In this document: piece after piece, positions 8,415 through 45,928 of the stretch
Layout of the letters: each line of letters opens with the position of its first letter
Numbering within the stretch: position 1 is the stretch's first letter
Origin: Erythrobacter neustonensis
Lineage (GTDB): Bacteria > Pseudomonadota > Alphaproteobacteria > Sphingomonadales > Sphingomonadaceae
Direction of reading: 5' to 3'
Assembly: GCF_001663175.1 (NCBI RefSeq)
Contig: NZ_CP016033.1
Location: forward strand, 1,798,001-1,862,000
DNA length: 64,000 nucleotides
Translations under genes and position numbers: made by a program
The notes under the pieces: generated by a model
Seen by the model: only the letters and a program-made list of their open reading frames with translations
What the model was told of the DNA's origin: nothing
Database searches by the model: none

Positions 8415-8466
8415 TTGGCACCGTTCAGACCCCCTCCAGACCCTCTCTAGACCCGTCCTGACCCCC
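8415..8466 (+). repeat. Phased CAGACCC repeats left of parS1
   Basis: Four variants of a (C/T)NGACCC unit begin at 8427, 8438, 8449 and 8459 (spacing 11, 11, 10 bp), preceded by TTGGCACC at 8415-8422. The last unit starts 18 bp before parS1. Comparable arrays precede the other two parS sites in the same orientation. Confidence 0.8.
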
Positions 8467-8476
8467 TTGCCTTGCG

Positions 8477-8492
8477 TGTTTCACGTGAAACA
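8477..8492. other. parS: parS1, ParB-binding centromere site
   Basis: TGTTTCACGTGAAACA is a perfect 16-bp palindrome that matches the canonical bacterial parS consensus with no mismatch. ParB nucleates here for chromosome segregation. It lies between genes. Confidence 0.95.
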
Positions 8493-8607
8493 TTCCCCTA
8501 CGGCTCCCCCACCCTCGGCAACGGCCCGACATTTTCCTCTTTTCCGCGTCCGCGCAGGGTGACAAGACGTATCGCAAATCGAAACCGATTTTTTGAGGAG
8601 AGACCCC

Positions 8608-9804
8608 ATGAACCTCGAGTTCACCCCTGAAGAGCAGGCGTTCCGCGAAGAGGTCCGCAGCTTCATCGCCGAGAACTACCCCAAGCACCTCGCTGATTTC
8701 GGCATGCGCGAAGACATGGACCGCGAAGACTTCGTCGCGTGGCACAAGATCCTTGGGGCGAAGGGCTGGTCGGTTCCCGCATGGCCGGTCGAATATGGCG
8801 GCACCGGCTGGACCCCGACCCAGCGTTACATCTGGGGCGAAGAAAACGCCCGCGTCAACGCGCTGATGCCGCTGCCCTTCGGTGTCTCGATGGTCGGCCC
8901 GGTGATCTACACCTTCGGTAACGAGGAACAGAAGGCCAAGCACCTGCCCGGCATCCGCAGCGGTGAAGTGTGGTGGTGTCAGGGTTACTCGGAACCCGGC
9001 GCGGGCTCCGACCTTGCCAGCCTCAAGACCACCGCGGTGCGCGATGGCGACCACTATGTCATCAACGGCCAGAAGACTTGGACCACGCTCGCCCAGCACG
9101 CCGACTGGGGCTTCTTCCTGTGCCGCACCGATCCCACCGCCAAGGCACAGGAGGGCATCAGCTTCATCCTGGTCGACATGAAGACGCCGGGTGTCGAGGT
9201 AAAGCCGATCAAGCTTCTGGACGGCGGCTACGAGGTCAACGAAACCTGGCTCACTGACGTGCGCGTGCCGGTCGAAAACCTCGTCGGGCAGGAGAACAAG
9301 GGCTGGACCTATGCCAAGTTCCTGCTTGCGCACGAACGCTCTGGTATCGCAGGGGTCGCCCGCTCGAAGCGCGGCGTGGAGAAGCTGCGCGAGATCGCGG
9401 CGCATGAAACGCTGGACGGCCAGCCGCTGATCAAGGATTTCGACTTCGCCAAGAAGGTCAGCCAGCTCGAAATCGATCTGGCCGCGCTCGAAATCACCGA
9501 ACTTCGCACGCTCGCGGGCGAGCAGGCGGGCAAGGGGCCGGGGCCGGAAAGCTCGATCCTCAAGATCAAGGGCACCGAAATCCAGCAGCGCCTCACGGAA
9601 CTGACGCTGGAAGCGGTCGGCACTTACAGTGCGCCCTATATGGGCGGGGTGTCGAACGACAACGGCTCGAACGAACACCCGGTCGGCCCCGACTACGCGG
9701 CTCACGCGGCGGCGACCTATTTCAACATGCGCAAGACCAGTATTTATGGCGGATCGAACGAGATCCAGCGCAACATCATCACCAAGATGATCCTCGGCCT
9801 TTAA
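8608..9804 (+). CDS. Acyl-CoA dehydrogenase, first of a pair
   Basis: A 398-residue FAD-dependent acyl-CoA dehydrogenase. An N-terminal helical domain precedes QGYSEPGAGSDLASLKT (flavin-binding middle domain, about residues 130-146) and the C-terminal SIYGGSNEIQRNIITK. In MCAD-type enzymes the catalytic glutamate precedes the GT of the YEGT motif. Here that position is glycine, so the base must come from elsewhere or from the partner. ATG 8608 has GAGGAGA upstream; an in-frame ATG at 8593 lies before that site. The second dehydrogenase follows after 22 nt, as in heteromeric dehydrogenases acting on dicarboxylyl, cyclic or steroid side-chain acyl-CoAs. The substrate is unknown. Confidence 0.88.
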   Translation: MNLEFTPEEQAFREEVRSFIAENYPKHLADFGMREDMDREDFVAWHKILGAKGWSVPAWPVEYGGTGWTPTQRYIWGEENARVNALMPLPFGVSMVGPVIYTFGNEEQKAKHLPGIRSGEVWWCQGYSEPGAGSDLASLKTTAVRDGDHYVINGQKTWTTLAQHADWGFFLCRTDPTAKAQEGISFILVDMKTPGVEVKPIKLLDGGYEVNETWLTDVRVPVENLVGQENKGWTYAKFLLAHERSGIAGVARSKRGVEKLREIAAHETLDGQPLIKDFDFAKKVSQLEIDLAALEITELRTLAGEQAGKGPGPESSILKIKGTEIQQRLTELTLEAVGTYSAPYMGGVSNDNGSNEHPVGPDYAAHAAATYFNMRKTSIYGGSNEIQRNIITKMILGL

Positions 9805-9826
9805 GCCGGACGACGGGAGAGAATTC

Positions 9827-10957
9827 GTGGATTTCAACTTCACCGAAGAACAGGGCATGGTGCGCGACGGCCTCTCGCGGCTGGTGCGTGAGCAATACGG
9901 GTTCGAGGAGCGCCGCAAGGCCATCGCGAGCAGTGAAGGCTGGCGGCCCGAGGTGTGGAGCCAGTTGGCCGAACTCGGCATCCTCGGCATGCCCTTCAGC
10001 GAAGCCGATGGCGGCTTCGGCGGCGGCGCGGTCGATGCGATGGTCATCATGGAGGAATTCGGCAAGGGTCTGGTGATCGAGCCCTTCCTTCCCACGGTGG
10101 TCTGCGCAGGTGGCTTTCTGAAGCACGCAGGCACCGCGGCGCAGAAGGAAGAGCATATCGGCGCGATCGTTTCGGGCGCTGCGGTGTTCGCCTTCGCCTA
10201 TGCTGAACCGCGCGGACGCTTCGACTATGCCGATCTTGAAACCACCGCGAAGAAGGACGGCGCGGGCTATGTGCTGAACGGGCACAAGGCGGTCGTGATC
10301 GGCGCGCCCTGGGCCAGCCACCTGATCGTCACCGCACGCACCGGCGGCGAGCGGCGCGATCGCAGCGGCGTTTCGGTGTTCCTGCTCGCCAAGGATACGC
10401 CCGGCGTCACCACCCGCGACTATGTCACGGTCGATGGCCGCCGCGCCTCGGAAGTCTATTTCGAGAACGTTGCGGTCGGCGCAGACGCGCTGATCGGCGT
10501 GGAGGGCGAGGGCCTTGCGCTGATCGAAACCGTCACCGACGAAGCGATCGCCGCGCTGTGTGCCGAAGCCTGCGGGGCGATGAAGGTCGCCCACGCGATG
10601 ACGGTCGAATACAGCCGCCAGCGCAAGCAGTTCGGCGTGCCGATCGGGAGTTTCCAGGTCCTACAGCACCGCATGGTCGACATGTACACCGCCTACGAAC
10701 AGGCGGTGTCGCTGACCTACCTCGCCACGCTGCGTCTGGGTTCGGACGAACGGACCCGCAAGCTGGCGGTTTCGGCCGCCAAGGTCGGGGTCGGCCAGGC
10801 CGCCCGCCTGATCGGTCAGGAAGCGGTCCAGATCCACGGCGGCAACGGCGTGACCGATGAATATGCGATCGGCCACTATTTCAAGCGGCTGACCATTTTC
10901 GACAGCGAATTCGGCAATGTCGACCATCACCTGAAGCGCCACGTCGCGCTCAGCTAA
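9827..10957 (+). CDS. Acyl-CoA dehydrogenase, second of a pair
   Basis: A 376-residue acyl-CoA dehydrogenase starting with GTG at 9827 behind GGGAGAG. It is shorter and more divergent than its neighbour. The middle domain has AYAEPRGRFDYADLETTA in place of the usual GSD loop. The C-terminal part retains SRQRKQFGVPIGSFQVLQH and GQEAVQIHGGNGVTDEY. The 22-nt gap to the first gene and the asymmetric pair resemble alpha/beta heterotetrameric dehydrogenases such as pimeloyl-CoA or FadE28/29-type enzymes. That is inference from gene arrangement. A strong terminator follows. Confidence 0.87.
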   Translation: MDFNFTEEQGMVRDGLSRLVREQYGFEERRKAIASSEGWRPEVWSQLAELGILGMPFSEADGGFGGGAVDAMVIMEEFGKGLVIEPFLPTVVCAGGFLKHAGTAAQKEEHIGAIVSGAAVFAFAYAEPRGRFDYADLETTAKKDGAGYVLNGHKAVVIGAPWASHLIVTARTGGERRDRSGVSVFLLAKDTPGVTTRDYVTVDGRRASEVYFENVAVGADALIGVEGEGLALIETVTDEAIAALCAEACGAMKVAHAMTVEYSRQRKQFGVPIGSFQVLQHRMVDMYTAYEQAVSLTYLATLRLGSDERTRKLAVSAAKVGVGQAARLIGQEAVQIHGGNGVTDEYAIGHYFKRLTIFDSEFGNVDHHLKRHVALS

Positions 10958-10975
10958 GTCGTTCTGCTATTAGGG

Positions 10976-11014
10976 AAAAACCCCGCCCGCGGTATGCCGC
11001 TGGCGGGGTTTTTT
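10976..11014. terminator. Bidirectional intrinsic terminator
   Basis: AACCCCGCC and GCGG on the left pair with CCGC and GGCGGGGTT on the right around a TATG loop, with one C/T mismatch. T6 follows on the plus strand, and the leading A5 gives a T5 on the minus strand. It therefore serves both the dehydrogenase pair and the convergent lacI gene ending at 11022. Confidence 0.9.
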
Positions 11015-11021
11015 GATGCGC

Positions 11022-12053
11022 TCAGGCGGTATCGCGCAGCGCCAGTTCGGGCGGCAGGACAAGGCTCTCGGTCGCCTCGCCCGCCAGCCGGCGCAGCAGC
11101 AGATCGACAAGACCATGCGCGCCCGCAGCGATATCCTGCCGCACCGTCGTCAAGGCCGGCAGCGTCTGGCGCGCGATCGGCAGATCGTCGAACCCGACCA
11201 CTTTGACATCGCCGGGCACCGCCATCTTCTGCTTGCGCAATTCGGTAAGGCAGAGCGCCGCCAGCGTATCGGTCGCGGCAAAAATCCCTTCCAGATCAGC
11301 ACCATGCGCTGCGACATGTGCGGCAATCTCGATGCTTGCGCGGTCGGGCGAAAGGTGGGTGGAGAGCGGCAGGATGGGTGCGATACCAGCCTTTCGCGCG
11401 GCATCCTCGGCCCCGGCGAAGCGCGCGGCAAATTCGATCGGGCCGGTGTCGCCCAGAAAGGCGATGCGGCTGGCCCCGGCGGCAATCAGGCGTTCGGCTG
11501 CCAGCCTGCCACCAAGGCGGTTGTCGGTGCCGACCACGCAATGCCGCTGGCCCTCGGTGTGGTTGCCCCACACCACCATCGGGCGATAGCTATCGGCAAC
11601 CTCCTCGATCCGGTCGAACTGGTCGGACTGGCCGATCACGATCACCCCGTCGATCATCCCCGAACCGATGAACCGGTCGAGCCAGTCGGGATCGGTTTCG
11701 GGCACCACCCGGCGCAGCATCAGGTCATAGCCGTTGGTGGTCAGCTCGTCGGCGAGAAAGCCGAGCAAGGTCATGAAAAAGCTGTCGGAAATCTGCTGGC
11801 GGATATCGTGACCCAAGGGAATCACGACCCCGATCACCCCGGTTTTCTGCCGCCTGAGGCCGCTGGCCATCTGGTTGGGGCGAAAGCCGTGTTCGCGCGC
11901 CAATGCCTCGATCTTCTGGCGGGTCTGGGTGTTGACGAGGCTCTTGCCCGCCAGCGCGCGGCTGACCGTGCCGGGGGAGACCCCCGCCAGCCGCGCCAGA
12001 TCGGTGATGGTGCGCACCGCGGTGCGCATAGGCTTGTCGTCGCCGCTCGGCAT
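11022..12053 (-). CDS. LacI-family regulator of the sucrose module
   Basis: A LacI-family regulator of 343 residues from ATG 12053. The helix-turn-helix (TITDLARLAGVSPGTVSRALAG) leads into a hinge (NQMASGLRRQKTGVIGVVIP) and a sugar-sensing domain with ATDTLAALCLTEL and VVGFDDLPIARQTLPALTTV. The start was chosen because AGAGGA lies just upstream and longer frames would enter the MFS gene, which ends 10 bp upstream. The two operators at 13474-13513 sit between the MFS and receptor genes it accompanies, so it probably represses both in the absence of sucrose or a breakdown product. Confidence 0.9.
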   Translation of the reverse strand: MPSGDDKPMRTAVRTITDLARLAGVSPGTVSRALAGKSLVNTQTRQKIEALAREHGFRPNQMASGLRRQKTGVIGVVIPLGHDIRQQISDSFFMTLLGFLADELTTNGYDLMLRRVVPETDPDWLDRFIGSGMIDGVIVIGQSDQFDRIEEVADSYRPMVVWGNHTEGQRHCVVGTDNRLGGRLAAERLIAAGASRIAFLGDTGPIEFAARFAGAEDAARKAGIAPILPLSTHLSPDRASIEIAAHVAAHGADLEGIFAATDTLAALCLTELRKQKMAVPGDVKVVGFDDLPIARQTLPALTTVRQDIAAGAHGLVDLLLRRLAGEATESLVLPPELALRDTA

Positions 12054-12063
12054 TGCTGTCCTC

Positions 12064-13395
12064 TTAGCCGGCAAGCAGCTCCCCCGTGTCGCGGGGGCGG
12101 CGGTGTCCGGCATCCACCAGCAGCGTAGCGAGCGCGCCCGCCAGCATCAAGACACCCCCCAGCATTAGAACATGACGCGGATCGCCGCCCAGCAGCGGAC
12201 GATAGATCAGCGGCATCGTCAGCGTCTGGATCAGCATCGGGATGACGATGAACAGGTTGAAGATGCCCATGTAGATCCCGTTGCGGTGCGGCGGGATGCA
12301 GTCGGCCAGCATGACGTAGGTGTTCCCCATCATCCCGGCCCAGCCGATTCCGATCCCGATCATCAGCACGAACAGCCCCGCAGGCGTCGAGACACCCGGG
12401 ATCAGCAGCATCGCCGCGCCCGATGCGGCAAGGCACACCGCATGTGTCGGCCGCGCGCCGAAGCGGCGCACCACGGGGATCAGCACCAGGGCGCCGATAA
12501 AGGCGATGAAGTTGTAAAGCGCGCCCGCCTGCTGTGTGGTCAGCGTCGCCGCGCGGAAGGCGGCGCTGGCAGGATCGCTGGTGTTGTAAAGCGAGCGGCC
12601 CACCGCAAAGGTGATATACTGCCAGTAAGCGAACATCGCATACCATTGGCACAGCATCGCGGCGGCGAGCTGGCGCATCGGGCGCGGCATTTCGGCGATT
12701 GCATTGCCGATCTCGGCCAAAGTCGCGCGCACCGTCAGCGGCTTTGCGTCAAGTTCCGCCTGCTCCGCGGCCGAAAGCGGCAATTCGCGCACCCGCAGCA
12801 CCGACCACAGGATCGTCGAGAGCGACAGGATCGCACCGATCACAAAGGCGATCCGCACGATCACCGGGATCCCGTTGGCATCGAGCACATCGCGCGCGAC
12901 GAATGCGGTAAGCAGACTGGGGGCAAGATAGGACAGCGTCTGCGCAAGTCCCGTAAAGGCGCTTTGCGTCAGGAACCCGATCGAACGTTGGTCGGGCGCG
13001 AGGCGGTCGGCGACATAGGCCCGGTAGGGCTCCATCGTGATGTTGTTGCCAGCATCGAGGATCCAGAGCAGCGAGGCCGCCATCCACAGCGTGGCGGAAT
13101 AGGGCATCGCGAACAGGGCGAGGGTGCAGATCACTGCGCCGATCAGGAAGTATGGCGTCCGGCGGCCCAGACGGGTGTTGGTCCGGTCGCTCATCGCGCC
13201 GACGATCGGCTGGATGATGAGCCCGGTCATCGGGCCCGCCAGCCACAATAGCGGCATCGAAGCCTCGTCCGCGCCGAGGAAGCCATAGATCGGGCCCATA
13301 TTGGCCTGTTGCAATCCGAAGCTGAATTGCAGGCCGAAGAAACCGATGTTCATCTCGATGATTCTGAGCAGCGAAAGCCGTGGCTTTTCCGACAT
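12064..13395 (-). CDS. SUT/SLC45-type MFS sugar:proton symporter
   Basis: A 443-residue, 12-helix carrier. LAGPMTGLIIQPIVGAMSDRT (about residues 52-72) followed by RLGRRTPY is the signature of the sucrose-transporter (SUT)/SLC45 branch of the MFS/GPH superfamily. It should carry sucrose or a related oligosaccharide across the inner membrane after the divergently encoded receptor delivers it to the periplasm. ATG 13395 is preferred over 13407 because GAGG lies 6 nt before it. It sits in an apparent operon with the LacI gene downstream. Confidence 0.85.
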   Translation of the reverse strand: MSEKPRLSLLRIIEMNIGFFGLQFSFGLQQANMGPIYGFLGADEASMPLLWLAGPMTGLIIQPIVGAMSDRTNTRLGRRTPYFLIGAVICTLALFAMPYSATLWMAASLLWILDAGNNITMEPYRAYVADRLAPDQRSIGFLTQSAFTGLAQTLSYLAPSLLTAFVARDVLDANGIPVIVRIAFVIGAILSLSTILWSVLRVRELPLSAAEQAELDAKPLTVRATLAEIGNAIAEMPRPMRQLAAAMLCQWYAMFAYWQYITFAVGRSLYNTSDPASAAFRAATLTTQQAGALYNFIAFIGALVLIPVVRRFGARPTHAVCLAASGAAMLLIPGVSTPAGLFVLMIGIGIGWAGMMGNTYVMLADCIPPHRNGIYMGIFNLFIVIPMLIQTLTMPLIYRPLLGGDPRHVLMLGGVLMLAGALATLLVDAGHRRPRDTGELLAG

Positions 13396-13473
13396 ATGGC
13401 GCCTCATCCCATGGTATATGCATGCACCTTATAGCCGGTGCTGTGGCCAAGAGGTGACATGTTTCGGGAACAT

Positions 13474-13513
13474 TTGCAAACGATTGCAAGATTCCTCTTG
13501 CAATCGTTTGCAA
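13474..13513. promoter_or_regulatory. Double LacI-family operator (sucrose module)
   Basis: TTGCAAACGATTGCAA (13474-13489) and its exact inverse TTGCAATCGTTTGCAA (13498-13513) are each near-palindromic with the central-CG pattern of LacI-family operators. Their centres are 24 bp apart. With flanking GA/TC they form a perfect 18-bp inverted repeat around TTCC. The site lies 60-80 bp from each divergent start, suited to joint control of the MFS-lacI and receptor-GH68-kinase transcripts. Confidence 0.85.
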
Positions 13514-13573
13514 GATTGATAGTCCATGATCCGTCAGCGCCCCAAGAAGCGCGAATTCGAGAGGAAACCAACC

Positions 13574-16033
13574 ATGAAATTGCGTTCCGCGCTTTGCGCC
13601 AGTGCTGCCCTGTCCGCTCTGCTTGCCGCTCCCGCCTTCGCGCAGGATCAGGCTGCCGGCGAAACGGTCGAGGGCGAGGAAATCATTGTCACCGCGGTTG
13701 CGCGCGGGCAGAACCGCATCGAAAGCTCGGTCTCGGTCAGCGCGATCGGCGCCGAAGCCATCGCCAACCTGGCCGCGCCATCCGCGGCTGACCTCATTCG
13801 CCAGATCCCGGGGATCCGTTCCGAAGCATCGGGCGGCGAGGGCAATGCCAACATCGCGGTGCGCGGTATTCCGGTGTCGACCGGCGGCGGGCGTTATGTC
13901 CAGCTGCAGGAAGATGGCCTGCCGATCCTCGAATTCGGCGATATCGTCTTCGGCAACGCCGACAACTTCCTGCGCGCCGATCGTTCGGTTGCCCGCGTCG
14001 AAGCGGTGCGCGGCGGTTCGGCCTCGACCTTTGCATCGAACGCCCCGGGCGCTGTCATCAACTTCATCTCCAAGACCGGCGAGACCGAGGGCGGGGCGAT
14101 TCAGGCAAGCGTCGGGCTCGATTATGAAAGTTACCGGCTCGATTTCGATTACGGCGCGCCGCTGGCCGAAGCCCTCTATTTCCACGTCGGCGGTTTCTAC
14201 CGCACCGGCGAAGGCCCGCGCGACATCGGTTACAACGGCTATGACGGCGGCCAGATCAAGGCCAACATCACCAAGGAATTCGACGGCGGCTATATCCGCT
14301 TTTCGGCGAAGTATCTCGACGACACCACCCCGACCATCCTGCCCCAGCCGGTGCGGGTGACGGGTTCGGCGGGCAACCCCGATTACAGCGGCATCGCCGG
14401 GTTCGATCCGCGCACCGATTCGCTCTACAGCCCCTTCCTCACGCCCGCGCGCACGCTGGATGGCAACAACAACCCGGCGTCCTATGATTTCCGTGACGGG
14501 CTGTCGGTCAAGTCGATGGCCTTCGGGATCGAAAGCGAGATCGACGTGGGTAGCGGCTGGACGCTGACCAACCGGTTCCGCTTTGCCGACAATTCGGGCG
14601 GTTTCATGTCGCCCTTCCCGGCAGGCGTCGACAGCGCGCAGGCGGTTGCCAATGCGATCGGCGGGGCAGGGTCGAGCATCGTCTTTGCCACCGGCCCCAA
14701 TGCCGGGCAGGTCGCCAATGCGGCCAACATCGGCGGCAACGGGCTGCTGACCAATGTCATCAACTTCAACGTCCGGCTGAACAGCCTCGACAACGTCACC
14801 AACGATTTCCGCGTGAACAAGGAATTCGACTTCGGCGGCGGCTCGGCCAACTTCACCACCGGTTTCTACCTTTCGCGCCAAACGGTCGATACCGACTGGC
14901 TGTGGACCAGCCATGTCCAGACCGTGCAGGGCGACGGGCAGGCGGTGCTGGTGGATATCCGCAATGCCGGCGGCCAGCTGGTCACCGATGGCGGCACCGT
15001 GGCCTACAGCGCCAACTTCTTCGGCAATTGCTGCCGCCGGTCGTATGATGTCGATTATTCGACCTATGCGCCGTTCGCCTCGCTGTCGGTGCAGACCGGG
15101 CAGCTGACCCTCGACGCTTCGATCCGCTATGATTTCGGCGATGCCAGCGGCACGATCGCAGGGTCGGACACCGGTTTCGGCACCGGGATCCGCAGCTTCG
15201 ACTTCGACGGCAACGGCGTCATCAACCCGGCCGAAGCCTCGACCGCGATCATCCCGGCGGCGCGTCCGGTCAATTACAACTTCGACTATTTCAGCTTCTC
15301 GCTGGGGGCGAATTATCTCGTCACCGACGATCTGGGCATCTTCGCACGCTACAGCCAAGGTGGCCGCCACACGGCCGACCGATCGCTGTTCTCGCCTGCC
15401 GTCAGCACCGTGGATGGCGGTCTGCCGGGCGGCGATACCGGTGTGATCGCGCGGGTCGACCAGCTTGAAACCGGTCTGAAATACCAGTCGGGCGGCGTGG
15501 CGCTCTATGCGACCGGGTTCTTCGCCAAGACCAACGAGAACAACATCGAACTGCCCAACCGCGTGTTCAACAACGAATACGAAGCTTACGGGGTCGAGCT
15601 TGAAGGCTCGTACCGCAGCGGCCCGTTCTCGCTGTCGGCAGGCGCGACCTGGACCGACGCCGAGATCAAGGACACCGACCCCGGCCGCGCTGCGGTAATC
15701 GGCAACACCCCGCGCCGGCAGGCCGACTTCGTCTATCAGGCGACCGCCCAATACGAAGCCGACATGTTCACGCTGGGCGCCAACGTGGTGGGCACGACCG
15801 AAAGCTTCACGCAGGACAACAACGATCTGATCCTGCCGGCCTATGCACAGGTCAACGCCTTCCTTGCCTTCCGTCCGATCGAGCGGATCGAACTGGGCCT
15901 GAATGCGACCAACCTGTTTAACGCCGAAGGCTATACCGAGGCCGAGGAAGGTTCGATCCCGGCCAATGGCCTGGTGCGCGCGCGTTCGATCGCGGGCCGC
16001 ACGGTGCTTGCCTCGGTCCGGTTCGATTTCTGA
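13574..16033 (+). CDS. TonB-dependent receptor, predicted sucrose receptor
   Basis: An 819-residue TonB-dependent receptor. The signal peptide (residues 1-23, ending APAFAQ) is followed by a TonB box EEIIVTAVARG, a plug domain beginning near NRIESSVSVSAIGAEAIANL, and a barrel ending in ASVRFDF with a terminal Phe. ATG 13574 follows AGAGGAAA; an in-frame ATG at 13526 lies close to the operators and lacks such a site. Gene order (divergent SUT-type carrier, downstream GH68 and fructokinase) points to sucrose or fructosyl oligosaccharides, as for SuxA-type receptors. That ligand is inference. Confidence 0.88.
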   Translation: MKLRSALCASAALSALLAAPAFAQDQAAGETVEGEEIIVTAVARGQNRIESSVSVSAIGAEAIANLAAPSAADLIRQIPGIRSEASGGEGNANIAVRGIPVSTGGGRYVQLQEDGLPILEFGDIVFGNADNFLRADRSVARVEAVRGGSASTFASNAPGAVINFISKTGETEGGAIQASVGLDYESYRLDFDYGAPLAEALYFHVGGFYRTGEGPRDIGYNGYDGGQIKANITKEFDGGYIRFSAKYLDDTTPTILPQPVRVTGSAGNPDYSGIAGFDPRTDSLYSPFLTPARTLDGNNNPASYDFRDGLSVKSMAFGIESEIDVGSGWTLTNRFRFADNSGGFMSPFPAGVDSAQAVANAIGGAGSSIVFATGPNAGQVANAANIGGNGLLTNVINFNVRLNSLDNVTNDFRVNKEFDFGGGSANFTTGFYLSRQTVDTDWLWTSHVQTVQGDGQAVLVDIRNAGGQLVTDGGTVAYSANFFGNCCRRSYDVDYSTYAPFASLSVQTGQLTLDASIRYDFGDASGTIAGSDTGFGTGIRSFDFDGNGVINPAEASTAIIPAARPVNYNFDYFSFSLGANYLVTDDLGIFARYSQGGRHTADRSLFSPAVSTVDGGLPGGDTGVIARVDQLETGLKYQSGGVALYATGFFAKTNENNIELPNRVFNNEYEAYGVELEGSYRSGPFSLSAGATWTDAEIKDTDPGRAAVIGNTPRRQADFVYQATAQYEADMFTLGANVVGTTESFTQDNNDLILPAYAQVNAFLAFRPIERIELGLNATNLFNAEGYTEAEEGSIPANGLVRARSIAGRTVLASVRFDF

Positions 16034-16053
16034 TCGCCGGATCGATGACCAAT

Positions 16054-16094
16054 GGGCTGGCCACCATTCTCCCCCGGTGGCCAGCCCCACTTTT
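16054..16094 (+). terminator. Strong hairpin between receptor and GH68 gene
   Basis: GGGCTGGCCACC (16054-16065) pairs perfectly with GGTGGCCAGCCC (16076-16087) around a 10-nt loop, and CACTTTTC follows. It looks like a partial terminator that would lower expression of the cytoplasmic enzymes relative to the receptor. Confidence 0.75.
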
Positions 16095-16130
16095 CAATGA
16101 CGAATGCAAAAGCGGGATGGGATCACGCGA

Positions 16131-17216
16131 ATGACCAGCGCATGGACTGAAAGGCACGTTCGCCTGCTTGACGGCCCGCGCGATCCTGCCGCGCTGATCC
16201 CGGTGGTCGGACAGGCTGATCGCTCCGCGCTCGACCCTGCGCGCCTTTACTGGGACATGTGGCCCGTGCAGGACGCAGCCGGTTTTCCCGCCACCCTCGC
16301 AGGGCGCGAGATGTGGATGGCGCTGACCGCGCCCGATCGCGGTGATCCGGCGCTGCGCCATTTCGAAGCGAAGATCCACTGGCTCGAACGCAAGGATGGC
16401 AGGTGGCACGATTGCGGCCCCGTGCTGCCCGAGGGTCAGGGGGTGGCTTACGAACGCGAGTGGGCAGGCTGCGCGCTGCTCGATGAAGCAGGCATGCTGA
16501 CGCTGTTCTTCACCGCCGCTGGCACCGCATCGCGGGCGGGGGGATATCAGCAGGAATTGTGGGAAGCGCACGCCCGGCTCGGGCCCGATGGCTGGCCTGC
16601 GGATTGGTCCGCGCCGCGCCCGATCGTCACCGGATATGCCCCCCATTACATGCCCGCCGACGCTCACGAGGGCGAGGCGGGCAAGATCAAGGCGTTCCGC
16701 GATCCGGCCTATTTCCGCGATCCGGCGGACGGGGCGGAATATATCGCCTTCACCGCATCGCTTGCCGGATCGGACAGCGCCTTCAATGGCGCGCTTGGGC
16801 TGGCACGGCGGACGGCTGCGGGGTGGGAACTGATCGCCCCCTGCATCCACGCCGAAGCGGTCAACAACGAGCTTGAACGCGCGCATCTGGTGTTTCACGC
16901 CGGGCGCTATTACGCTTTCTGGTCGACGCAGACGGTGACTTTCGCCGAACACCTGCGCCATTCGCCGGGGGGGCTTTACGGGATGGTTGCAGACAGTCTT
17001 GAAGGCCCGTGGCAGCCGCTCAACGGCAGCGGGCTGGTGCTCGCCAACCCCGATGATGCCCCGCTGCAAACCTATAGCTGGTTCGTCGATGCCAGCCTTC
17101 AGGTGTGCAGTTTTGTCGATGTTCTGCCGGGCGGCGAATTTGGCGGAGTGCCTGCGCCATTGATGGATCTGACGCTTGACGGGGCGCGCGCGGCAGCGGC
17201 GCAGGGCGCTGCCTGA
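16131..17216 (+). CDS. GH68 fructosyl hydrolase/transferase (intracellular sucrase)
   Basis: A 361-residue glycoside hydrolase family 68 protein. The three catalytic elements are visible: the nucleophile in WDMWPVQ (D42), the stabiliser in AFRDP (D191) and the acid/base in NNELERAH (E249). GH68 includes levansucrases and beta-fructofuranosidases. No signal peptide is present, and a fructokinase overlaps its stop by 1 nt (TGATG). Cleavage of imported sucrose in the cytoplasm to glucose and fructose is therefore more likely than extracellular levan synthesis. ATG 16131 is preferred over the in-frame ATG 16104 because GGGATGGGAT precedes it. Confidence 0.85.
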   Translation: MTSAWTERHVRLLDGPRDPAALIPVVGQADRSALDPARLYWDMWPVQDAAGFPATLAGREMWMALTAPDRGDPALRHFEAKIHWLERKDGRWHDCGPVLPEGQGVAYEREWAGCALLDEAGMLTLFFTAAGTASRAGGYQQELWEAHARLGPDGWPADWSAPRPIVTGYAPHYMPADAHEGEAGKIKAFRDPAYFRDPADGAEYIAFTASLAGSDSAFNGALGLARRTAAGWELIAPCIHAEAVNNELERAHLVFHAGRYYAFWSTQTVTFAEHLRHSPGGLYGMVADSLEGPWQPLNGSGLVLANPDDAPLQTYSWFVDASLQVCSFVDVLPGGEFGGVPAPLMDLTLDGARAAAAQGAA

Positions 17217-18094: not shown

Positions 18095-18132
18095 GGCAGC
18101 GCGCCTTTCCCGCGATAGACCGCAGGGAAGGG

Positions 18133-25664: not shown

Positions 25665-25715
25665 TTGGCACCTTCAGACCCTCTCCAGACCCCCGCCAGC
25701 CTGCATTCAGCAACC
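25665..25715 (+). repeat. Phased CAGACC repeats left of parS2
   Basis: After TTGGCACC (25665-25672), CAG-type units begin at 25676, 25687, 25698 and 25709, exactly 11 bp apart. The first two are full CAGACC; the last two have decayed to CAGCCT and CAGCAA. The last unit begins 18 bp before parS2. Confidence 0.75.
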
Positions 25716-25726
25716 GTTTGCAGCCG

Positions 25727-25742
25727 TGTTTCACGTGAAACA
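25727..25742. other. parS: parS2, ParB-binding centromere site
   Basis: Perfect copy of TGTTTCACGTGAAACA in the convergent gap between lacI and the PEP-carboxylase homologue. Confidence 0.95.
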
Positions 25743-32518: not shown

Positions 32519-32540
32519 GGGATGATCCTCAAAATCTTTG

Positions 32541-34529: not shown

Positions 34530-34565
34530 CACGCAGCCCGTCGCTCGCCCGCGCGGGCCGGTGTT

Positions 34566-35876: not shown

Positions 35877-35919
35877 GGTTGTCGGGCGCTCCTTGTGGAG
35901 TGCGCGATAGCGGGCCCGG

Positions 35920-38431: not shown

Positions 38432-38883
38432 CGGATTTCGGCCTCCCCCGCCCAGGCTTGATCGCCCGCGCGGATCGCCATGCGCAGCTGCCAGCGGCCC
38501 GGTGCGACCGCCTCGCGCGAAACCCAGCGGCCCTGCGCCCCGGCGACGAAGGACAGCGGCGTTTCCTCGCGCACGCCGAGCGGCCGGCTGGCGGTCGCGG
38601 TGATCTGCGCCGCCGCGGGAACGTGCAGCGTCTCGATCACGATGCGGCCATCCTCGCGCCGGTGGGGCACCGCCTGCCAGCCCAGCGCCTCGGACGCGGC
38701 CGCTTGGCGCAGCCAACCGTTGTAATTCTGGCTGGCGACATAGGAATTGTCGACCACGGTGCCGTGGAAACTGCCCACCGCGATGCTCGCCATGAGCAGG
38801 TTGACCGCGATCACCACGGCAAATCCGCCGACCAGCACGACCGCCATGCGCGGGCCGGTGAAAGGACTTCTGGTGCGGGCCAT
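38428..38883 (-). CDS. ccoH: cbb3 oxidase assembly protein CcoH/FixH
   Basis: A 151-residue FixH-type protein: one transmembrane helix (about residues 15-37, VVLVGGFAVVIAVNLLMA) and a periplasmic domain with VVDNSYVASQNYN, a recognisable FixH signature. It stabilises the oxidase during assembly. The start overlaps the ccoG stop by 1 nt (TGATG). Confidence 0.93.
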   Translation of the reverse strand: MARTRSPFTGPRMAVVLVGGFAVVIAVNLLMASIAVGSFHGTVVDNSYVASQNYNGWLRQAAASEALGWQAVPHRREDGRIVIETLHVPAAAQITATASRPLGVREETPLSFVAGAQGRWVSREAVAPGRWQLRMAIRAGDQAWAGEAEIR

Positions 38884-40445
38884 CACTTGTTCTCCGCCAT
38901 ATCCGATTGGGGATGGGCAAATGTCGTCGGGGCAAGGTCGCTTTCGCGCTGCTCGTCGAGCGCGGTCAGGCGGAAGGCAAAATCGCCTGCCACAGTGCCT
39001 TGGGGCAACAGCACATAGGCGCGCAGCACGCGGGTGGCGTTGGCATCGACCGTGACCCGCTGGACGGGGGCGGCGTTGTCCATGCTGACCGCCTCGGTCC
39101 ACATCACCGCGCCTTGGGGTAGGCCTTGCATCGCGACCTCCATCTCGCGCGGGCGCGCCTCCATGTTGCGCAGCCGCAGCGTGAAGGCATTGCGCACCGA
39201 TCCATCCTTCAACAGCATGAAGGGCGGGTTGCGATCGGGCGCCACCGTCAGGTCGGTGTGGCTGCGGGTGCCCAGCGCAAACAGCAGGCCCGCGCCGATC
39301 GCGGCCCAGACCCCGAAATAGACGAACAGGCGGGGCCGCAGCAGCGCCTTCCATGCGGGCGTTGCCGGCGCGCCCGCGGCCTCGGCCTTGCACTGGTCCA
39401 ATGTCGCGTAATCGATCAGCCCGCGCGGGCGGCCGACATCCTGCATCACCCGGTCGCAGGCATCGATGCACAATCCGCAGGTGATGCAGCCGATCTGCTG
39501 GCCTGCGCGGATGTCGACGCCCGTGGGGCAGACCGCGACGCACAGGTTGCAATCGATGCAGTCGCCATATTCATCCGGGTTCTTGGCCGCCTTTTTGACG
39601 CTGCCGCGCTTTTCACCGCGCCAGTCCTTGTAGGTTACGATCAGCGATTTTTCGTCGAGCATCGCGGTCTGGATGCGCGGCCAGGGGCACATGTAAACGC
39701 ACACCTGTTCGCGCATGAACCCGCCAAGCCAGAAGGTCGTGCCGGTCAGCACCGCGACGGTGGCATAGGCGACCGGGGCCGCCTCGCCCCGCCAGAACGC
39801 GTAGGTGAGGGTTGGCGCATCGGCGAAATACATGATCCACGCGCCGCCGGTCCAGAAGGCGATGGCAAGATAGACCGCCCACTTGGCCATCCGCCGCGCG
39901 ATCTTCGATGCGGTCCACGGTGCCTTGTCAAGGCGCATCCGCGCATTGCGATCGCCGTCGAAGAAGCGGTCGACATGCTGGAACAGGTCGGTCCACACGG
40001 TCTGCGGGCAGGCATAGCCGCACCATGCGCGGCCCACCGCGCTGGTGACGAGGAACAACCCGATCCCCGCCATGATGAGCAGGCCCGCGACGAAAAAGAA
40101 TTCGTGCGGCCAGATCTCGATATCGAACATGTAAAAGCGGCGGTTGGCGAGATCGACCAGCACCGCCTGATCGGGGGCGAAGGGACCGCGGTCCCAGCGG
40201 ATCCACGGGGTCGCGTAATAGATCCCCAGCGTCACCAGCATCATCAGCCACTTGAAACGCCGAAACGGCCCGTCGATCCGCTTGTTGTGGACCGTCCTGC
40301 CCTTTTCATAGAGCGCTGCGCCCATGAAGCCGGAAGGCGCGGGCTGCGGTGCAGGAGCGCCGAGCGCGCCCGCCCAGTCGCGCGCAGGCGGTGGAGCGGG
40401 CGGGGCGGGCGGGGCGGGGCGGGCGAGTTCGTCGGCCTGGGCCAT
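38883..40445 (-). CDS. ccoG: Cytochrome oxidase accessory protein CcoG/FixG
   Basis: A 520-residue polytopic iron-sulfur protein linked to Cu reduction for cbb3 assembly. WCGYACPQTVW and YMCPWPRIQ are CcoG hallmarks. Two [4Fe-4S] motifs, CIDCNLCVAVCPTG and CITCGLCIDACD, follow, then an Ig-like periplasmic C-terminal domain (LRLRNMEARPREMEV). The N-terminus has an unusual Pro/Ala-rich stretch (about residues 8-38). ATG 40445 is used because the frame upstream runs into ccoP. Confidence 0.95.
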   Translation of the reverse strand: MAQADELARPAPPAPPAPPPARDWAGALGAPAPQPAPSGFMGAALYEKGRTVHNKRIDGPFRRFKWLMMLVTLGIYYATPWIRWDRGPFAPDQAVLVDLANRRFYMFDIEIWPHEFFFVAGLLIMAGIGLFLVTSAVGRAWCGYACPQTVWTDLFQHVDRFFDGDRNARMRLDKAPWTASKIARRMAKWAVYLAIAFWTGGAWIMYFADAPTLTYAFWRGEAAPVAYATVAVLTGTTFWLGGFMREQVCVYMCPWPRIQTAMLDEKSLIVTYKDWRGEKRGSVKKAAKNPDEYGDCIDCNLCVAVCPTGVDIRAGQQIGCITCGLCIDACDRVMQDVGRPRGLIDYATLDQCKAEAAGAPATPAWKALLRPRLFVYFGVWAAIGAGLLFALGTRSHTDLTVAPDRNPPFMLLKDGSVRNAFTLRLRNMEARPREMEVAMQGLPQGAVMWTEAVSMDNAAPVQRVTVDANATRVLRAYVLLPQGTVAGDFAFRLTALDEQRESDLAPTTFAHPQSDMAENK

Positions 40446-40455
40446 GGGACGTGAC

Positions 40456-41409
40456 CTACTTGCTGGCGACCTTGGTCGCTGCGGGAGCCGCAGGAGCGGC
40501 GGCGGGGGCATCGGGGGTGGCAGGGGCGGCATCCTGCCCGCCGCCGCGCGAGTGGACATAGGCGGCGAGCATCTTGATCGTGACCGGATCGAGCCGCCCT
40601 TTCCATGCGGGCATCACCCCGTGGCGCGGTGCCTCGATCTGGCGGGCGATGTCCGCTTCGGTGCCGCCCAGAAGCCAGATCGCATCGTTCAATGCAGGCG
40701 CGCCCATCGCCGGGCTGCCTTCGCCGCCGGTGCCGTGGCAGGCGGCGCAATTGTCGGCGAAAAGCTGCGCGCCGGCAGGGCTGGACTTGTGCTTGCCCGA
40801 CAGCGAGAGGACATGGCCGGTAAGCGCGGCGGTCTGGCTCTTGTCGAACATCCCGGCAAAGGCGGGCATGAAATTGGTGCGCGTCTCGTCCGAGCCTTCC
40901 CATCGGATCCCGTGGGTGAGCGTGTATTCGATCTCGCTCAGCGTGCCGCCCCAGATCCAGTCATCGTCGTTGAGGTTGGGATAGCCCGCCGATCCTGCCG
41001 CGCCTGCGCCGTGGCACTGGACGCAATTGACCTTGAAGGCGGCAGCCCCGCCGGCCACCGCGGCCTGCATCAGCTGCGGATCGGCGGCCAGCTTTTCGAT
41101 GTCGGTCACCGCGATCCGCTCGGTCACGCTCTGGCGCGCCGCATCGGCTGCGCCCATTTCGCGCACCAGATCGCCCCGGCTCGACCAGCCCAGCGTGCCC
41201 GCGGTCGCGCGCTCGACCATCGGCCAGGCGGGGTAAAACACGACATAGACCGCGGCGAACACGATCGTCGCATAGAAGGTGTAGAGCCACCAGCGCGGCA
41301 GCGGGGTGTTGAGCTCCTCGATGCCGTCCCATTCGTGGCCGACGGTTTCGGTGCCGGTGGGCGCGTCGATGCGTTTGCCGGCGCGGGCCGGGCTGTCAAA
41401 GGTGGTCAT
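40456..41409 (-). CDS. ccoP: cbb3 oxidase diheme subunit CcoP
   Basis: A 317-residue cytochrome c subunit. N-terminal HEWDGIEELNTPLPRWWLYTFY is the CcoP signature ahead of the membrane helix. Two haem c sites follow: CVQCH (C129, C132, H133) and CAACH. The C-terminal tail (about the last 30 residues) is Ala/Pro-rich. It shuttles electrons to CcoN/O. The start lies inside ccoQ (14-nt overlap). Confidence 0.96.
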   Translation of the reverse strand: MTTFDSPARAGKRIDAPTGTETVGHEWDGIEELNTPLPRWWLYTFYATIVFAAVYVVFYPAWPMVERATAGTLGWSSRGDLVREMGAADAARQSVTERIAVTDIEKLAADPQLMQAAVAGGAAAFKVNCVQCHGAGAAGSAGYPNLNDDDWIWGGTLSEIEYTLTHGIRWEGSDETRTNFMPAFAGMFDKSQTAALTGHVLSLSGKHKSSPAGAQLFADNCAACHGTGGEGSPAMGAPALNDAIWLLGGTEADIARQIEAPRHGVMPAWKGRLDPVTIKMLAAYVHSRGGGQDAAPATPDAPAAAPAAPAATKVASK

Positions 41410-41563
41410 TGGTGTCATCCTTGAAGATGAGGTGCTTGGCAGCATCGCGGTGCGCCCGCGCGCCGGGGCGAAAGTGCCACAGGCACAAGGTCAGATAGAG
41501 GCCGACGATCATCGCCAGCGCATAGCTGTCGGCAAAGTGGCGCAAGGCGGTGTAGAGGGTCAT
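41396..41563 (-). CDS. ccoQ: cbb3 oxidase small subunit CcoQ
   Basis: A 55-residue single-helix protein: [18 protein letters not shown] spans the membrane, then [20 protein letters not shown], the usual CcoQ tail. It stabilises the core complex. It overlaps ccoO by 4 nt and ccoP by 14 nt, confirming the ccoNOQP order. Confidence 0.93.
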
Positions 41564-42342
41564 CGCCCCTGCGCTCCCTTGCTGAGTTCCTCCTGCGCGG
41601 CGGCGCTGTTCACATCGACCAGCGTGCCCAGCATCTGGAGATAGGCGACCAGCGCATCCATTTCGGTCACGCGGCCCGGATCGCCGTCGAAGTCGCGGAT
41701 CTGCGCCTTGGGATAGCGCGCGGCCAGATCGCCGGCGTCGGCTTCGGGGTTGGCCTGGGCTTCGAGGTCGTTTGCGGCGGCCGCCAGATCGGCATCCGAA
41801 TAGGGCACGCCCACTGCGCGCAGCGCGGCAAGGCTGGCGGCGGGATCGGGCACCTTCAGCGCGGTTTGCGACAGGAAGCTGTAATTGGGCATGATGCTTT
41901 CGGGCACCACCGATCGCGGGGATTTCAGATGCTGGACATGCCAGGCATCCGAATAGCGCCCGCCGACGCGCGCCAGATCGGGCCCGGTGCGCTTCGATCC
42001 CCACTGGAAGGGGTGATCGTAGATCGATTCCGCGGCAAGGCTGTAGTGGCCATAGCGTTCGACCTCGTCGCGGAAGGGCCGGATCATCTGGCTGTGGCAG
42101 GTATAGCACCCCTCGCGCACATAGATGTCGCGGCCCGCCTGTTCGAGCGGGGTGTAGGGGCGCATCCCCTCGACCTTCTCGATCGTGTTGTCGACCCAGA
42201 ACAATGGGGCGATTTCCACGATCCCGCCGATCGCCACCACGCCAAGGGTCAGCGCGGCAAGCAGGGTGACGTTGCGTTCGAGCTTCTTGTGCCCGTCGAA
42301 GGCGCCGCCCGAAGCGTTGGGGGTGTTTGCAGTGTTGCTCAT
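41560..42342 (-). CDS. ccoO: cbb3 oxidase monoheme subunit CcoO
   Basis: A 260-residue membrane-anchored cytochrome c. The helix (about residues 27-48) is followed by [21 protein letters not shown] with haem site C79-C82-H83. [22 protein letters not shown] and the axial Met in SIMPNYSFL are typical of CcoO. Separated from ccoN by 24 nt. Confidence 0.97.
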
Positions 42343-42366
42343 GGTGTCAGGTTCCCGTTGGCGCGG

Positions 42367-44046
42367 TCATTCGGCCGGCTGTGCGGCAAAGGACGGGGCG
42401 GGGGATTGCGGCAGGGGGTGATCGGCGGACGTGTCGGCGGACACGTCGCCCATCGGGGCCTCGGCGCGCCGCTTTCCGGCGATGGTCATGGCGATATTGA
42501 AGGCCATGATGATCGCACCGCTGAGGTACATGAGGCCCCCCACGGCGCGCAGGATATACATCGGGTGGAGCGCCGCGACCGTGTCGACGAAGCTGTTCAC
42601 CAGGTATCCATCCGCGCCATATTCACGCCACATCAGCCCTTGCGTGATCCCGGCGACCCACATCGAGGCGGCGTAGAAAACGATCCCCAGCGTCGCGAGC
42701 CAGAAGTGCCAGTTGATCATCCGCAAGCTGTAGAGCCGCTCCCGGTTCCAGAGGCGCGGGGTGAGGTAGTAGACGCAGGCGAAGGTGATCATCCCGTTCC
42801 ACCCCAGCGCGCCGGAGTGCACGTGGCCGATCGTCCAGTCGGTGTAGTGCGACAGGCTGTTCACCGCCTTGATCGACAGCATCGGCCCTTCGAAGGTGCT
42901 CATCCCGTAAAACGCGAGCGCAAGCACCATCATGCGGATGATCGGATCGGTGCGGACCTTGTCCCATGCGCCGTTCAGCGTCATCAGCCCGTTGATCATC
43001 CCGCCCCAGCTCGGCATCCACAGCATCACCGAGAACACCATGCCCAGCGTCTGCGCCCAGTCGGGGAGCGCGGTGTAGTGGAGGTGGTGCGGGCCGGCCC
43101 AGATGTAGAGGAAGATCAGCGACCAGAAGTGGATGATCGACAGGCGGTAGGAGTACACCGGCCGCCCGGCCTGCTTGGGCACGAAGTAATACATCATCGC
43201 AAGGAAGCCCGCAGTGAGGAAGAAACCCACCGCGTTGTGGCCATACCACCACTGGGTCAGCGCATCCTGCACGCCGGCAAAGGCGCTGTAGCTTTTCGCG
43301 CCCAGCAGGCTGACGGGCATCGCCAGGTTGTTGACCACGTGCAGCATCGCGATCGTGATGATGAAGGCAAGGTAGAACCAGTTGGCGACATAGATGTGCG
43401 GTTCGCGCCGGTTCAGCAGCGTGCCGACAAACACCGCGGCATAGGCGAGCCAGACGATCGTCAGCCACAGATCGACATACCATTCGGGCTCGGCATATTC
43501 CTTGCCCTGGCCGATCCCGAGGATGTAGCCGGTCGCGGCGAGCACGATGAACAGCTGGTATCCCCAGAACACGAAGCGCGCGGTGCCCGGCAGCGCCAGC
43601 GTGGTGCGGCAGGTGCGCTGCACCACGTAGAAACTGGTCGCGAGCAGCGCATTGCCGCCGAAGGCGAAAATCACCGCCGAGGTGTGCAGCGGGCGCACCC
43701 GTCCGAAATTGAGATAGGGTTCGAGATTGAGCTGGGGGAAGGCAAGCTGCGCGGCGATGAACACGCCCACCAGCAAACCGACCACGCCCCAGAACATCGT
43801 CGCGATCACGCCCCAGCGGATCACGTCGTCATCATACCGGCTTGGCCCGGGGGGCATCCTGAACAGGCTTTGCGCCCGCGCGACCGGATCATAGGTGCCC
43901 AGCGTCGCCACGATCAGCACGACCGCGACAAGCCCGACGATCCCCATGTGGATCGCAAACCCCGCATCGGGGGTCAGCGCAATGGCAGCGATGCTGGCGA
44001 GCAGGACAAGCGCCCATACCCCCAGCCGCCCAACGACTGATTCCAT
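42367..44046 (-). CDS. ccoN: cbb3 oxidase catalytic subunit CcoN
   Basis: A 559-residue haem-copper oxidase subunit I of the C type. It has the expected helices and histidine segments: [61 protein letters not shown] and [12 protein letters not shown]. It reduces O2 with high affinity under microaerobic conditions. The C-terminal 40 residues are a variable Ala/Pro-rich tail. ATG 44046 was chosen at MESVVGRL; longer frames add only non-homologous sequence. An FNR-type box lies 58 bp upstream. Confidence 0.97.
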
Positions 44047-44103
44047 TTCGATTAATCCCTTGTTTCGCAGGCCGACCCCTAATCCGCGGCGGGGTCCCTT
44101 GTG

Positions 44104-44117
44104 TTTGAGCCAGATCA
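44104..44117. promoter_or_regulatory. FNR/FixK box upstream of ccoN
   Basis: TTGAGCCAGATCAA matches the TTGAT-N4-ATCAA consensus with one mismatch (G for T). It lies between the convergently placed 3' end of the crp/fnr gene and ccoN, at a distance suited to activate ccoN. Confidence 0.8.
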
Positions 44118-44158
44118 AATCGGCGGCGGAATTTGATGAAAGCGGTGTTTGCGGTGGT

Positions 44159-44905
44159 TCAGGCGCTGGCGCGGTGCGCGATCCGGGCCAGCGCCGCGAC
44201 ATCGCGCAGCGCGACCCCCGAACGGCCCTCGGTCGCGACCAGCCCGGCCTCGCGCAGTTCGGTGAGCTGGCGGCTGACGGTCTCGATCGTGAGGCCGAGG
44301 CTGTCGCCGATATCGCGGCGGCTCATCGGCAGCACGAACCGGCACGCGCCCGCGCGGCAATCGGCCAGCCGTTCGGCCATCGACACCAGGAAATCGGCGA
44401 CCCGTGCGGATGCGGACTTGTGCCCCATCTGCATCATCCGCGTGCGGCTGCGGTGCAGTGCCTGAAGCGACCGGGTCAGCACCGCGCGCAGCACCGCGGG
44501 ATCGGCCTGCGCGGTGTCGAGAAAGGCATCGGAGGGAAAGACCAGCAGGTTGCTGTTCTCCAGCGCCATCAGCCGGAAATCACCGCCGGATGCTGCGCTG
44601 CTCTGCCGCAGCACAGACACCAGATCGCCCGCGAAATGGAACGCCAGCACCTGCCCGCCGGGCGCGCCGCTGGGGTGACGCGCGACCAGCTTGGCAGCGC
44701 CGCTGGCGATCCAGACCAGCCTGTCGCGTTCGGGATCGGGCGCGAGTTCGGCGCCGCGGGCGAGCACCGCAGCCATGCCCAGCGTGCACAGCCGGGCAGC
44801 GGTATCGCCATCGCCGCAGCCTTGCGGCAAGGCGGCGCGGAACGCGGCGGTGGCACGCAGGCGCACGGCGCAGGGAGAAGGGCTGAGGCTTGCCATGATG
44901 CGCAT
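44159..44905 (-). CDS. Crp/Fnr-family regulator (FixK-like)
   Basis: A regulator of about 248 residues: cyclic-nucleotide-like domain (about 40-150), dimer helix, and a C-terminal winged helix with [23 protein letters not shown]. The E-xx-SR recognition residues are those that read TTGAT half-sites. The Fe-S cysteine pattern of FNR/FnrL is missing: N-terminal Cys are at 12, 30 and 40 without the CxxC pair, and no central Cys is seen. It is therefore probably FixK-like rather than a direct O2 sensor. Starts at GTG 44917 or ATG 44896 are alternatives. A perfect FNR box lies upstream, suggesting autoregulation. Confidence 0.85.
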
Positions 44906-44934
44906 GGCAATGCGCACAGCGAGCGCAAAGGTCT

Positions 44935-44948
44935 TTGATCCCGATCAA
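44935..44948. promoter_or_regulatory. Perfect FNR/FixK box between regulator and ompW
   Basis: TTGATCCCGATCAA is an exact TTGAT-N4-ATCAA palindrome in the divergent gap, 30 bp from the regulator start and about 100 bp from ompW. It could serve both. Confidence 0.88.
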
Positions 44949-45045
44949 TGAGGAAGGGGGGCGGGCGGGGCTATCGGCGCCCCCACAGGCAGCAACTTTC
45001 CTGGGCCGCATGGGCGCGGCCACTGCTGCCGACAAGGATGGGAAC

Positions 45046-45756
45046 ATGACAAGACTTGCAACGCCGCGCAGCATCGTTCTGGCCGGAACCGTTCTGGGAA
45101 CCGCGGCGCTGATGCTGGGGGCGGCCCCGGCAATGGCGCAAGGTGCGCTTGCGCGCGCCGGGCATATCCAGGCCAAGGTGCTGGGCACCTACGTCGCGCC
45201 CGACGGCAAGATCACCGACATCAACGTCAATCTGCCGGGGCTGCCGGCGACCACGCAGACCAAGGCCAACGACAATGTCACACCGACTGTCGCGGTCGAA
45301 TATTTCGTGACCGACAATGTCTCGATCGAAACCATCGCCGGGATCACCCAGCACGATGTCGATGCGACCGCGGGCCTGCCCGCCGGCGCGGAACTGGTCA
45401 GCAATGCCAAGCTGGTGCCTGCGACTGTCACGGCCAAGCTGCACTTCGATCTGGGCGGGGTGAAACCCTATGTCGGCGCGGGCCCGGCCTATTTCCTGTG
45501 GGTCGGCGACAAGCCGGGCGCCGCAGCGCTGCCGCTGGGCGTGACGCGCACCGATCTGTCGGACGAATTCGGGCTTGCGTTGCAGACCGGGGTCGACGTG
45601 CCGCTCAACGATACGGGGCTGGCCCTGTCGGTCGATGTGAAACGCTATTTCATCGACACCACCGCGCGCTGGTATGTCGGCAACACGCTGGCAATCGAGA
45701 CCGTGCACAAGCTTGACCCGTGGGTGATCAGCGCCGGGTTTGCCTTCCGGTTCTGA
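45046..45756 (+). CDS. ompW: OmpW-family outer-membrane protein
   Basis: A 236-residue eight-strand barrel protein. The signal peptide ends at APAMAQG (about residue 31). VAVEYFVTDNVSIETIAGITQHDV, VKPYVGAGPAYFLW and the final WVISAGFAFRF are OmpW features. OmpW proteins pass small hydrophobic molecules and are often induced under low oxygen, which fits the FNR box. GGATGGGAA precedes ATG 45046; earlier in-frame starts would overlap the FNR box. Confidence 0.9.
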   Translation: MTRLATPRSIVLAGTVLGTAALMLGAAPAMAQGALARAGHIQAKVLGTYVAPDGKITDINVNLPGLPATTQTKANDNVTPTVAVEYFVTDNVSIETIAGITQHDVDATAGLPAGAELVSNAKLVPATVTAKLHFDLGGVKPYVGAGPAYFLWVGDKPGAAALPLGVTRTDLSDEFGLALQTGVDVPLNDTGLALSVDVKRYFIDTTARWYVGNTLAIETVHKLDPWVISAGFAFRF

Positions 45757-45778
45757 CCGCGCCGCTTGCCAGGATAAT

Positions 45779-45821
45779 GCGAAAAGGCCCTGCCGGCGTC
45801 TGCCCGGCAGGGCCTTTTCGC
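45779..45821. terminator. Strong bidirectional terminator after ompW
   Basis: An 18-bp perfect stem (45779-45796 with 45804-45821) contains AAAAGGCCCTGCCGG and its complement around a 7-nt loop. The T4 inside the right arm, and A4 in the left, make it usable in both directions. Confidence 0.9.
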
Positions 45822-45850
45822 TGGCGTGTCGGCCGGTTTCGAGGCCCGTC

Positions 45851-45900
45851 TGACCCCATCCAGACCCCCTCCAGCCCCGTTTCGACCCCCTCCAGACCCT
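45851..45900 (+). repeat. Phased CAGACCC repeats left of parS3
   Basis: Five units, (C/T)(T/A)GACCC-like, start at 45851, 45862, 45873, 45883 and 45894 (spacing 11, 11, 10, 11 bp). The last begins 19 bp before parS3. Same strand and side as the arrays at parS1 and parS2. Confidence 0.8.
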
Positions 45901-45912
45901 GTCGGGGAGAGG

Positions 45913-45928
45913 TGTTTCACGTGAAACA
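45913..45928. other. parS: parS3, ParB-binding centromere site
   Basis: Third perfect TGTTTCACGTGAAACA, between ompW and the convergent porin gene. Confidence 0.95.

Follow-up and report, generated by a model that had tools for sequence, protein, structure and literature searches.

Dispersed parS sites with helically phased, polar repeat arrays point to an undescribed chromosome-organising element in Erythrobacter neustonensis

Introduction

What does a centromere sequence do when it recurs along a chromosome, each copy with a ladder of short direct repeats on one of its sides? This question is raised by a 64,000-nucleotide stretch of the Erythrobacter neustonensis chromosome (contig NZ_CP016033.1, positions 1,798,001 to 1,862,000; called the window hereafter), in which three parS sites, the 16-base-pair (bp) palindrome of the chromosomal ParABS system, are accompanied by arrays of CAGACCC-like units. 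According to PMC5815017, the parS sites known so far are found almost only close to the origin; in Caulobacter, where they may be placed is tightly constrained, and additional parS sites elsewhere disturb segregation. We followed up the window, the complete chromosome and sampled relatives computationally and found full parS sites chromosome-wide, most of them with an array in fixed helical register. The combination of parS and phased array points to an undescribed chromosome-organising element. Searches of the open-licence literature yielded no description of dispersed parS among these bacteria, nor of phased arrays beside parS, in line with a first-pass annotation of the window that knew of no described element like this.

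Results

parS sites and arrays in the window

Positions are those of the window; parS, being symmetric, has no strand.

8426..8464, plus strand: array 1, units CAGACCC, CAGACCC, TAGACCC and CTGACCC at 8426, 8437, 8448 and 8458
8477..8492, no strand: parS 1, TGTTTCACGTGAAACA, exact (contig site S1806477)
25675..25714, plus strand: array 2, good units at 25675 and 25686, degenerate units at 25697 and 25708
25727..25742, no strand: parS 2, TGTTTCACGTGAAACA, exact (contig site S1823727)
45850..45899, plus strand: array 3, units at 45850, 45861, 45872 and 45893, degenerate unit at 45882
45913..45928, no strand: parS 3, TGTTTCACGTGAAACA, exact (contig site S1843913)

Allowing up to 3 mismatches, we obtained three parS matches in the window, all of them exact, where 0.06 would be expected. 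Arrays of at least 3 units with one- or two-turn spacing occurred twice, both times at a parS, and in 0 of 50 shuffles; the middle parS (25727) has just two good units and falls short of this count. The CAGACCC arrays that had been annotated beside all three sites are present, with unit starts that had been given one base too high. Orthologous counterparts exist for each: an array-bearing site in other genomes for array 1, a site in AAP60 for array 2, and sites in G168, G230 and G241 for array 3. A scan of the window with Rfam gave 0 matches at gathering score.

parS is dispersed over the chromosome

On the 3,090,363-base chromosome, a search allowing up to 2 mismatches returned 63 parS sites, of which 52 match exactly and the other 11 differ at one base. 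Eight of them form a cluster at the origin (950135-954949), around gidA, gidB, parA and parB; the remaining 55 carry the same palindrome and are found chromosome-wide, not confined to the origin region. This scatter had been missed by the first-pass annotation, as had the species-specific array units described below. The origin position is here presumed from synteny with Caulobacter hemE and the terminus is inferred to lie opposite to it; GC skew was uninformative for terminus placement in this chromosome, and no extra gene appeared in the origin region among the matches listed. The genome (G000) encodes one ParB at E<=1e-20.

Regular spacing of the sites was considered and rejected, with a coefficient of variation of 0.83 vs 0.97 for random placement (P 0.11). 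One-mismatch parS are enriched in the fifth of the chromosome farthest from the origin (6/10 vs 4/45; Fisher p 0.001, noticed post hoc), and 7 of all 11 fall in 2.40-2.86 megabases, around the inferred terminus.

Arrays are polar and in register with parS

Units were counted with the pattern [CT][AT]G[AC]CCC within 130 bp on either side of each parS, for parS sites with up to 1 mismatch. An excess of units on one side, pointing at parS, was observed at 48 of the 63 sites, with at least 2 units on the array side at 45 parS and at least 3 at 33. The 15 array-less sites comprise all 8 members of the origin cluster and 7 dispersed parS, which contradicts the annotation of an array beside every parS. 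The 146 array-side units, compared with 14 on the opposite strand, are locked to parS at a period of about 10.75 bp (vector strength 0.92), and their density amounts to 23 per kilobase (kb) vs 0.7 in the background. They lie 19/20, 30, 41, 52, 63, 73, 84 and 94/95 bp from parS, and the mean phases of the 48 arrays agree closely (R 0.92, Rayleigh p ~3e-18, spread 0.7 bp). The polar, one-per-turn and directional arrangement beside a symmetric parS that had been annotated therefore holds over 48 sites. The fixed distance that went with it does not, since the distance between unit start and parS varies from about 9 to 95 bp, though in register. Array orientation does not follow the replichore either, a flip between replichores having been named as a check: 24 of 48 arrays point to the inferred terminus.

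In an alignment of the 48 sites, positions -35 to -58 stand out most strongly, with base preferences extending over the entire turn and spacers almost without A; outside the array and parS, the profile contains little information and no common sequence. Self-identity, computed independently of any motif, peaks at lag 11 in the home genome and in 4 of 5 other genomes or groups, with lag 12 being higher in G227. The arrays thus have the 11-bp head-to-tail repeat layout of OmpR/PhoB-type operators.

The spaced double unit AGACCCN5AGACCC matches the genome 31 times (reversed control: 0), adjoining parS in 26 cases. The first-pass annotation had named two observations that would speak against its reading, of which parS sites without arrays do exist (15/63) and arrays away from parS are few (5/31). 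Of these five matches, two lie at a parS split by an insert and three have no parS-like site near. At both split sites, near 899840 and 1791847 (L336, L338), a near-identical insert of about 20 bases separates the parS halves, with the array adjoining. Phased arrays free of parS were seen at L337, L339 and L340 in the home genome and at L077-L079, L344, L345 and L355 in G168.

Dispersal is restricted to one clade

Every other genome of a family sample (149 genomes) contains 0-4 exact parS. Within a sample of 100 genomes of the genus, 43 contain 9-86 parS with up to 1 mismatch and 57 contain 0-4. G168, counted among the 57, matches the TGTTCC-type palindrome TGTTCCACGTGGAACA 60 times, bringing the number of dispersed genomes to 44 of 100. 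Further hidden dispersal of the TGTTCC type in the genus was excluded, with counts of 0-22 besides G168 and 0-7 in non-dispersed genomes. The double unit reaches at least 6 matches in 22 genomes, all within the 44, and 0-2 in the remaining 78. A ParB tree was built with 38 rows from the 44 dispersed genomes and 16 from the 56 non-dispersed ones. All of the dispersed rows group as a single clade (support 100/98), adjoined by the non-dispersed G182, and their ParB differs from the 16 others, e.g. at positions 21-23, 107, 111, 177, 179 and 195.

Site positions are conserved while units change in concert

In ten other genomes, 74 of 114 dispersed sites are orthologous to a home-genome site position, where 4 of the 74 calls are backed by under 100 aligned bases, 3 of the ten site sets were chosen for having arrays, and G241 entered with 5 of its 7 non-origin exact sites. 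Among species with CAGACCC or TAGACCC units, the array side is concordant in 29/29 pairs. The unit itself varies by species (CAGACCC, TAGACCCC, TTTGCCG, TTTTGCGC, GTTGCC). At site 1424892, for example, it reads CAGACCC in the home genome and G168 and GTTGCC in G245, G230 and G241; such a difference at one site is what would be expected if the sites track a trans-acting protein. The register relative to parS is the same in 8 genomes, with best periods of 10.5-11.05 bp and vector strengths of 0.86-0.96; since 6 of the 8 were fetched via a pattern needing two one-turn-spaced units near parS, the period is partly selected and the phase is not. This common register fits the annotated proposal of a protein bound to one DNA face; whether as an accessory segregation factor, a barrier to ParB spreading or a cue for SMC loading, all three of which had been suggested, the array may act in any of these ways as far as its sequence shows.

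In G168, TGTTCCACGTGGAACA occupies 60 places including the origin, where 3/3 parS in the stretch are of this type, and ParB has an altered helix containing TQVEIAKLVDKSRSHIANMHRL. All 27 TGTTCC-type sites examined (up to 1 mismatch) bear arrays, with a vector strength of 0.90, most of the stretches having been picked through the array pattern. As judged from these sequences, parS changed together with ParB in G168, which would count, if only indirectly, for ParB reading the dispersed sites.

Candidates for a putative array reader

Repeat layout suggested proteins of the OmpR/PhoB family (PF00486), six of which are present in the home genome. All six have close relatives in G182, a sister genome without dispersal, at 72-96% identity and with the CtrA-like one aligned over just 77 residues. 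A reader from this family that is confined to the dispersed genome was therefore rejected, G182 being the one sister genome compared.

Discussion

Proposed mechanism

We consider it somewhat probable, though far from assured, that parS and array together make up a polar, composite element for loading ParB, in which the helically phased repeats serve an oligomeric protein as a platform on the DNA. Here, parS would be read by the ordinary chromosomal ParB of the cell and the 11-bp direct-repeat stack by an oligomeric, sequence-specific protein, with one subunit per helical turn, arranged head to tail. All array-bound subunits would reside on one DNA face, in a rotational register that is fixed relative to ParB, so that array protein and ParB could touch. 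We infer such a second protein and its contact with ParB because the arrays combine polarity, register, whole-turn base preferences and a concerted change of the unit. The stack would render the symmetric parS one-sided and could hold ParB clamps, block sliding on one side or pass ParB to a partner, while about 55 elements would spread ParB nucleoid-wide, on top of the array-free origin cluster. Occlusion, SMC loading or anchoring may be the cellular role; by analogy, the likeliest use would be a nucleoid-wide ParB platform like those of Noc and SlmA, possibly acting through MipZ, a partner of ParB, or else the loading of SMC. A wider proposal, which we regard as possible and put forward tentatively, is that the clade turned its ParB-parS centromere chromosome-wide, with an undescribed, fast-evolving oligomeric array reader dragging the units of all sites along. 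This would be an analogue of the co-evolution of centromeres and centromere proteins, organising or guarding the nucleoid.

Alternative explanations

Instead, the array might be a one-sided roadblock or anchor that limits ParB sliding at ParB-bound dispersed parS, without any role in cell division or SMC loading. Its one-sidedness, its location between parS and the closest gene on the array side, and the absence of arrays from origin-cluster parS, which need wide spreading, would all suit this purpose. However, a mere block would not need a fixed rotational register with parS, and array orientation is independent of replichore, so that we regard this explanation as unlikely. Still less probable is intrinsically bent or flexible DNA, e.g. 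a gyrase wrapping arm or an SMC bend, with no specific protein site. A period near the helical repeat, staying at about 11 while units vary among species, would be in agreement with bending, but strict strand polarity (146 vs 14 units), whole-turn base preferences and spacers almost without A would not. Neither would the curvature computed from roll and twist values, which lay below that of shuffles (mean z -0.32), with 0/48 arrays exceeding 2.

Two further explanations appear very improbable. If the elements belonged to gene 3' ends, resembling terminators or serving Rho utilisation, and lay near parS by chance, a C-rich array strand poor in A and G would be expected, as is found, and the gene context is suggestive. 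According to neighbour genes called by a home-made hexamer scorer, which makes the counts approximate, the array-side gene faces the array at 35/48 sites (p 0.002) and 22/48 array-bearing sites lie between convergent genes. However, the parS-side gene likewise points inward at 30/48, the units of other species include G and are not C-rich, and a terminator leaves the register with parS unexplained. Equally remote is a selfish repeat carrying parS, resembling a miniature inverted-repeat transposable element: numerous intergenic copies, ranging from 9 to 86 per species, are what such a repeat would produce, but the copies share neither flanks nor length, and their positions are orthologous between species.

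Several observations weigh against the composite ParB-loading element as well. Dispersed parS do not thin out from the inferred origin towards the inferred terminus (13, 10, 11, 11 and 10 per fifth), 7 of the 55 are without arrays, and arrays free of parS occur. Outside the CAGACCC-type species, array side agrees in 13 pairs, disagrees in 4 and gave no call in 28. TTG units in G227 and G180 are phase-locked (p <0.0005 and 0.0005) at about 3 bp off the home register, phase is marginal for G245, G230 and G241 combined (p 0.06), and G184 shows no lock (p 0.85). The co-change of parS and ParB is known from one species only, and G237 has one of the ParB helix changes of G168 yet retains TGTTTC sites. 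Finally, no array-binding protein was found in a search that covered PF00486 and ParB.

Relation to known systems

Chromosomal ParABS shares with the present system the palindrome, a parAB locus with its adjoining eight-site cluster and, in one species, the co-change of parS and ParB. It differs in that its known parS lie near the origin, whereas here they are chromosome-wide and array-bearing. Dispersed palindromes are familiar from Noc and SlmA, which have dozens of them, those of Noc serving a ParB-family protein. PMC4726725 gives about 70 Noc sites for B. subtilis and describes that Caulobacter ParB stimulates MipZ. Noc, however, is a separate ParB paralogue, whereas we find a single ParB (at the above threshold) and the true parS sequence rather than the palindrome of a dedicated paralogue. 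Noc and SlmA site density also falls at the terminus, in apparent contrast to the flat distribution here, though one-mismatch parS concentrate around the inferred terminus. We know of no arrays beside Noc or SlmA sites. In Pseudomonas aeruginosa, ParB binds hundreds of scattered half-parS sites, as described in PMC10419367. These are 7-bp half sites, whereas the present ones are complete palindromes, flanked by arrays and conserved in position.

Accessory proteins beside a ParB site are known from P1 plasmid parS, a centromere with IHF and box repeats. This layout is shared, but on P1 the site occurs once, on a plasmid, with neither a polar array of 11-bp units nor chromosome-wide spread. OmpR/PhoB-family and ParR proteins bind polar direct repeats of 11 bp (7+4 bp), head to tail and one per turn; the likeness is one of repeat layout, the difference being that no PF00486 protein is specific to the dispersed genome compared with G182.

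By the prevailing view, parS acts near the origin alone. Here, a natural clade has full parS everywhere, so that the consequences of nucleoid-wide ParB for segregation, SMC loading and division become directly testable. The array makes a symmetric site directional and points to a putative partner of ParB, and differing units at the same sites in relatives constitute a natural experiment on how a protein changes together with the dozens of DNA sites that it binds.

Further observations

Several array-poor dispersed parS in several species (L314, L324, L325, L326, L327, L332 and others) have an ATGTTC whose TGTTC precedes parS by one turn (about 11 bp), and are perhaps a second class of site. 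An unrelated alphaproteobacterium, G475, has 79 parS-like matches. Within 400 kb of it (L371-L390), we observed 23 sites, which are clustered (e.g. L377 10966-11211, L385 8305-8437) without an 11-bp period, and the clusters intermix variant palindromes such as TGTTTCACGAGAAACA and TGTTTCTCGTGAAACA.

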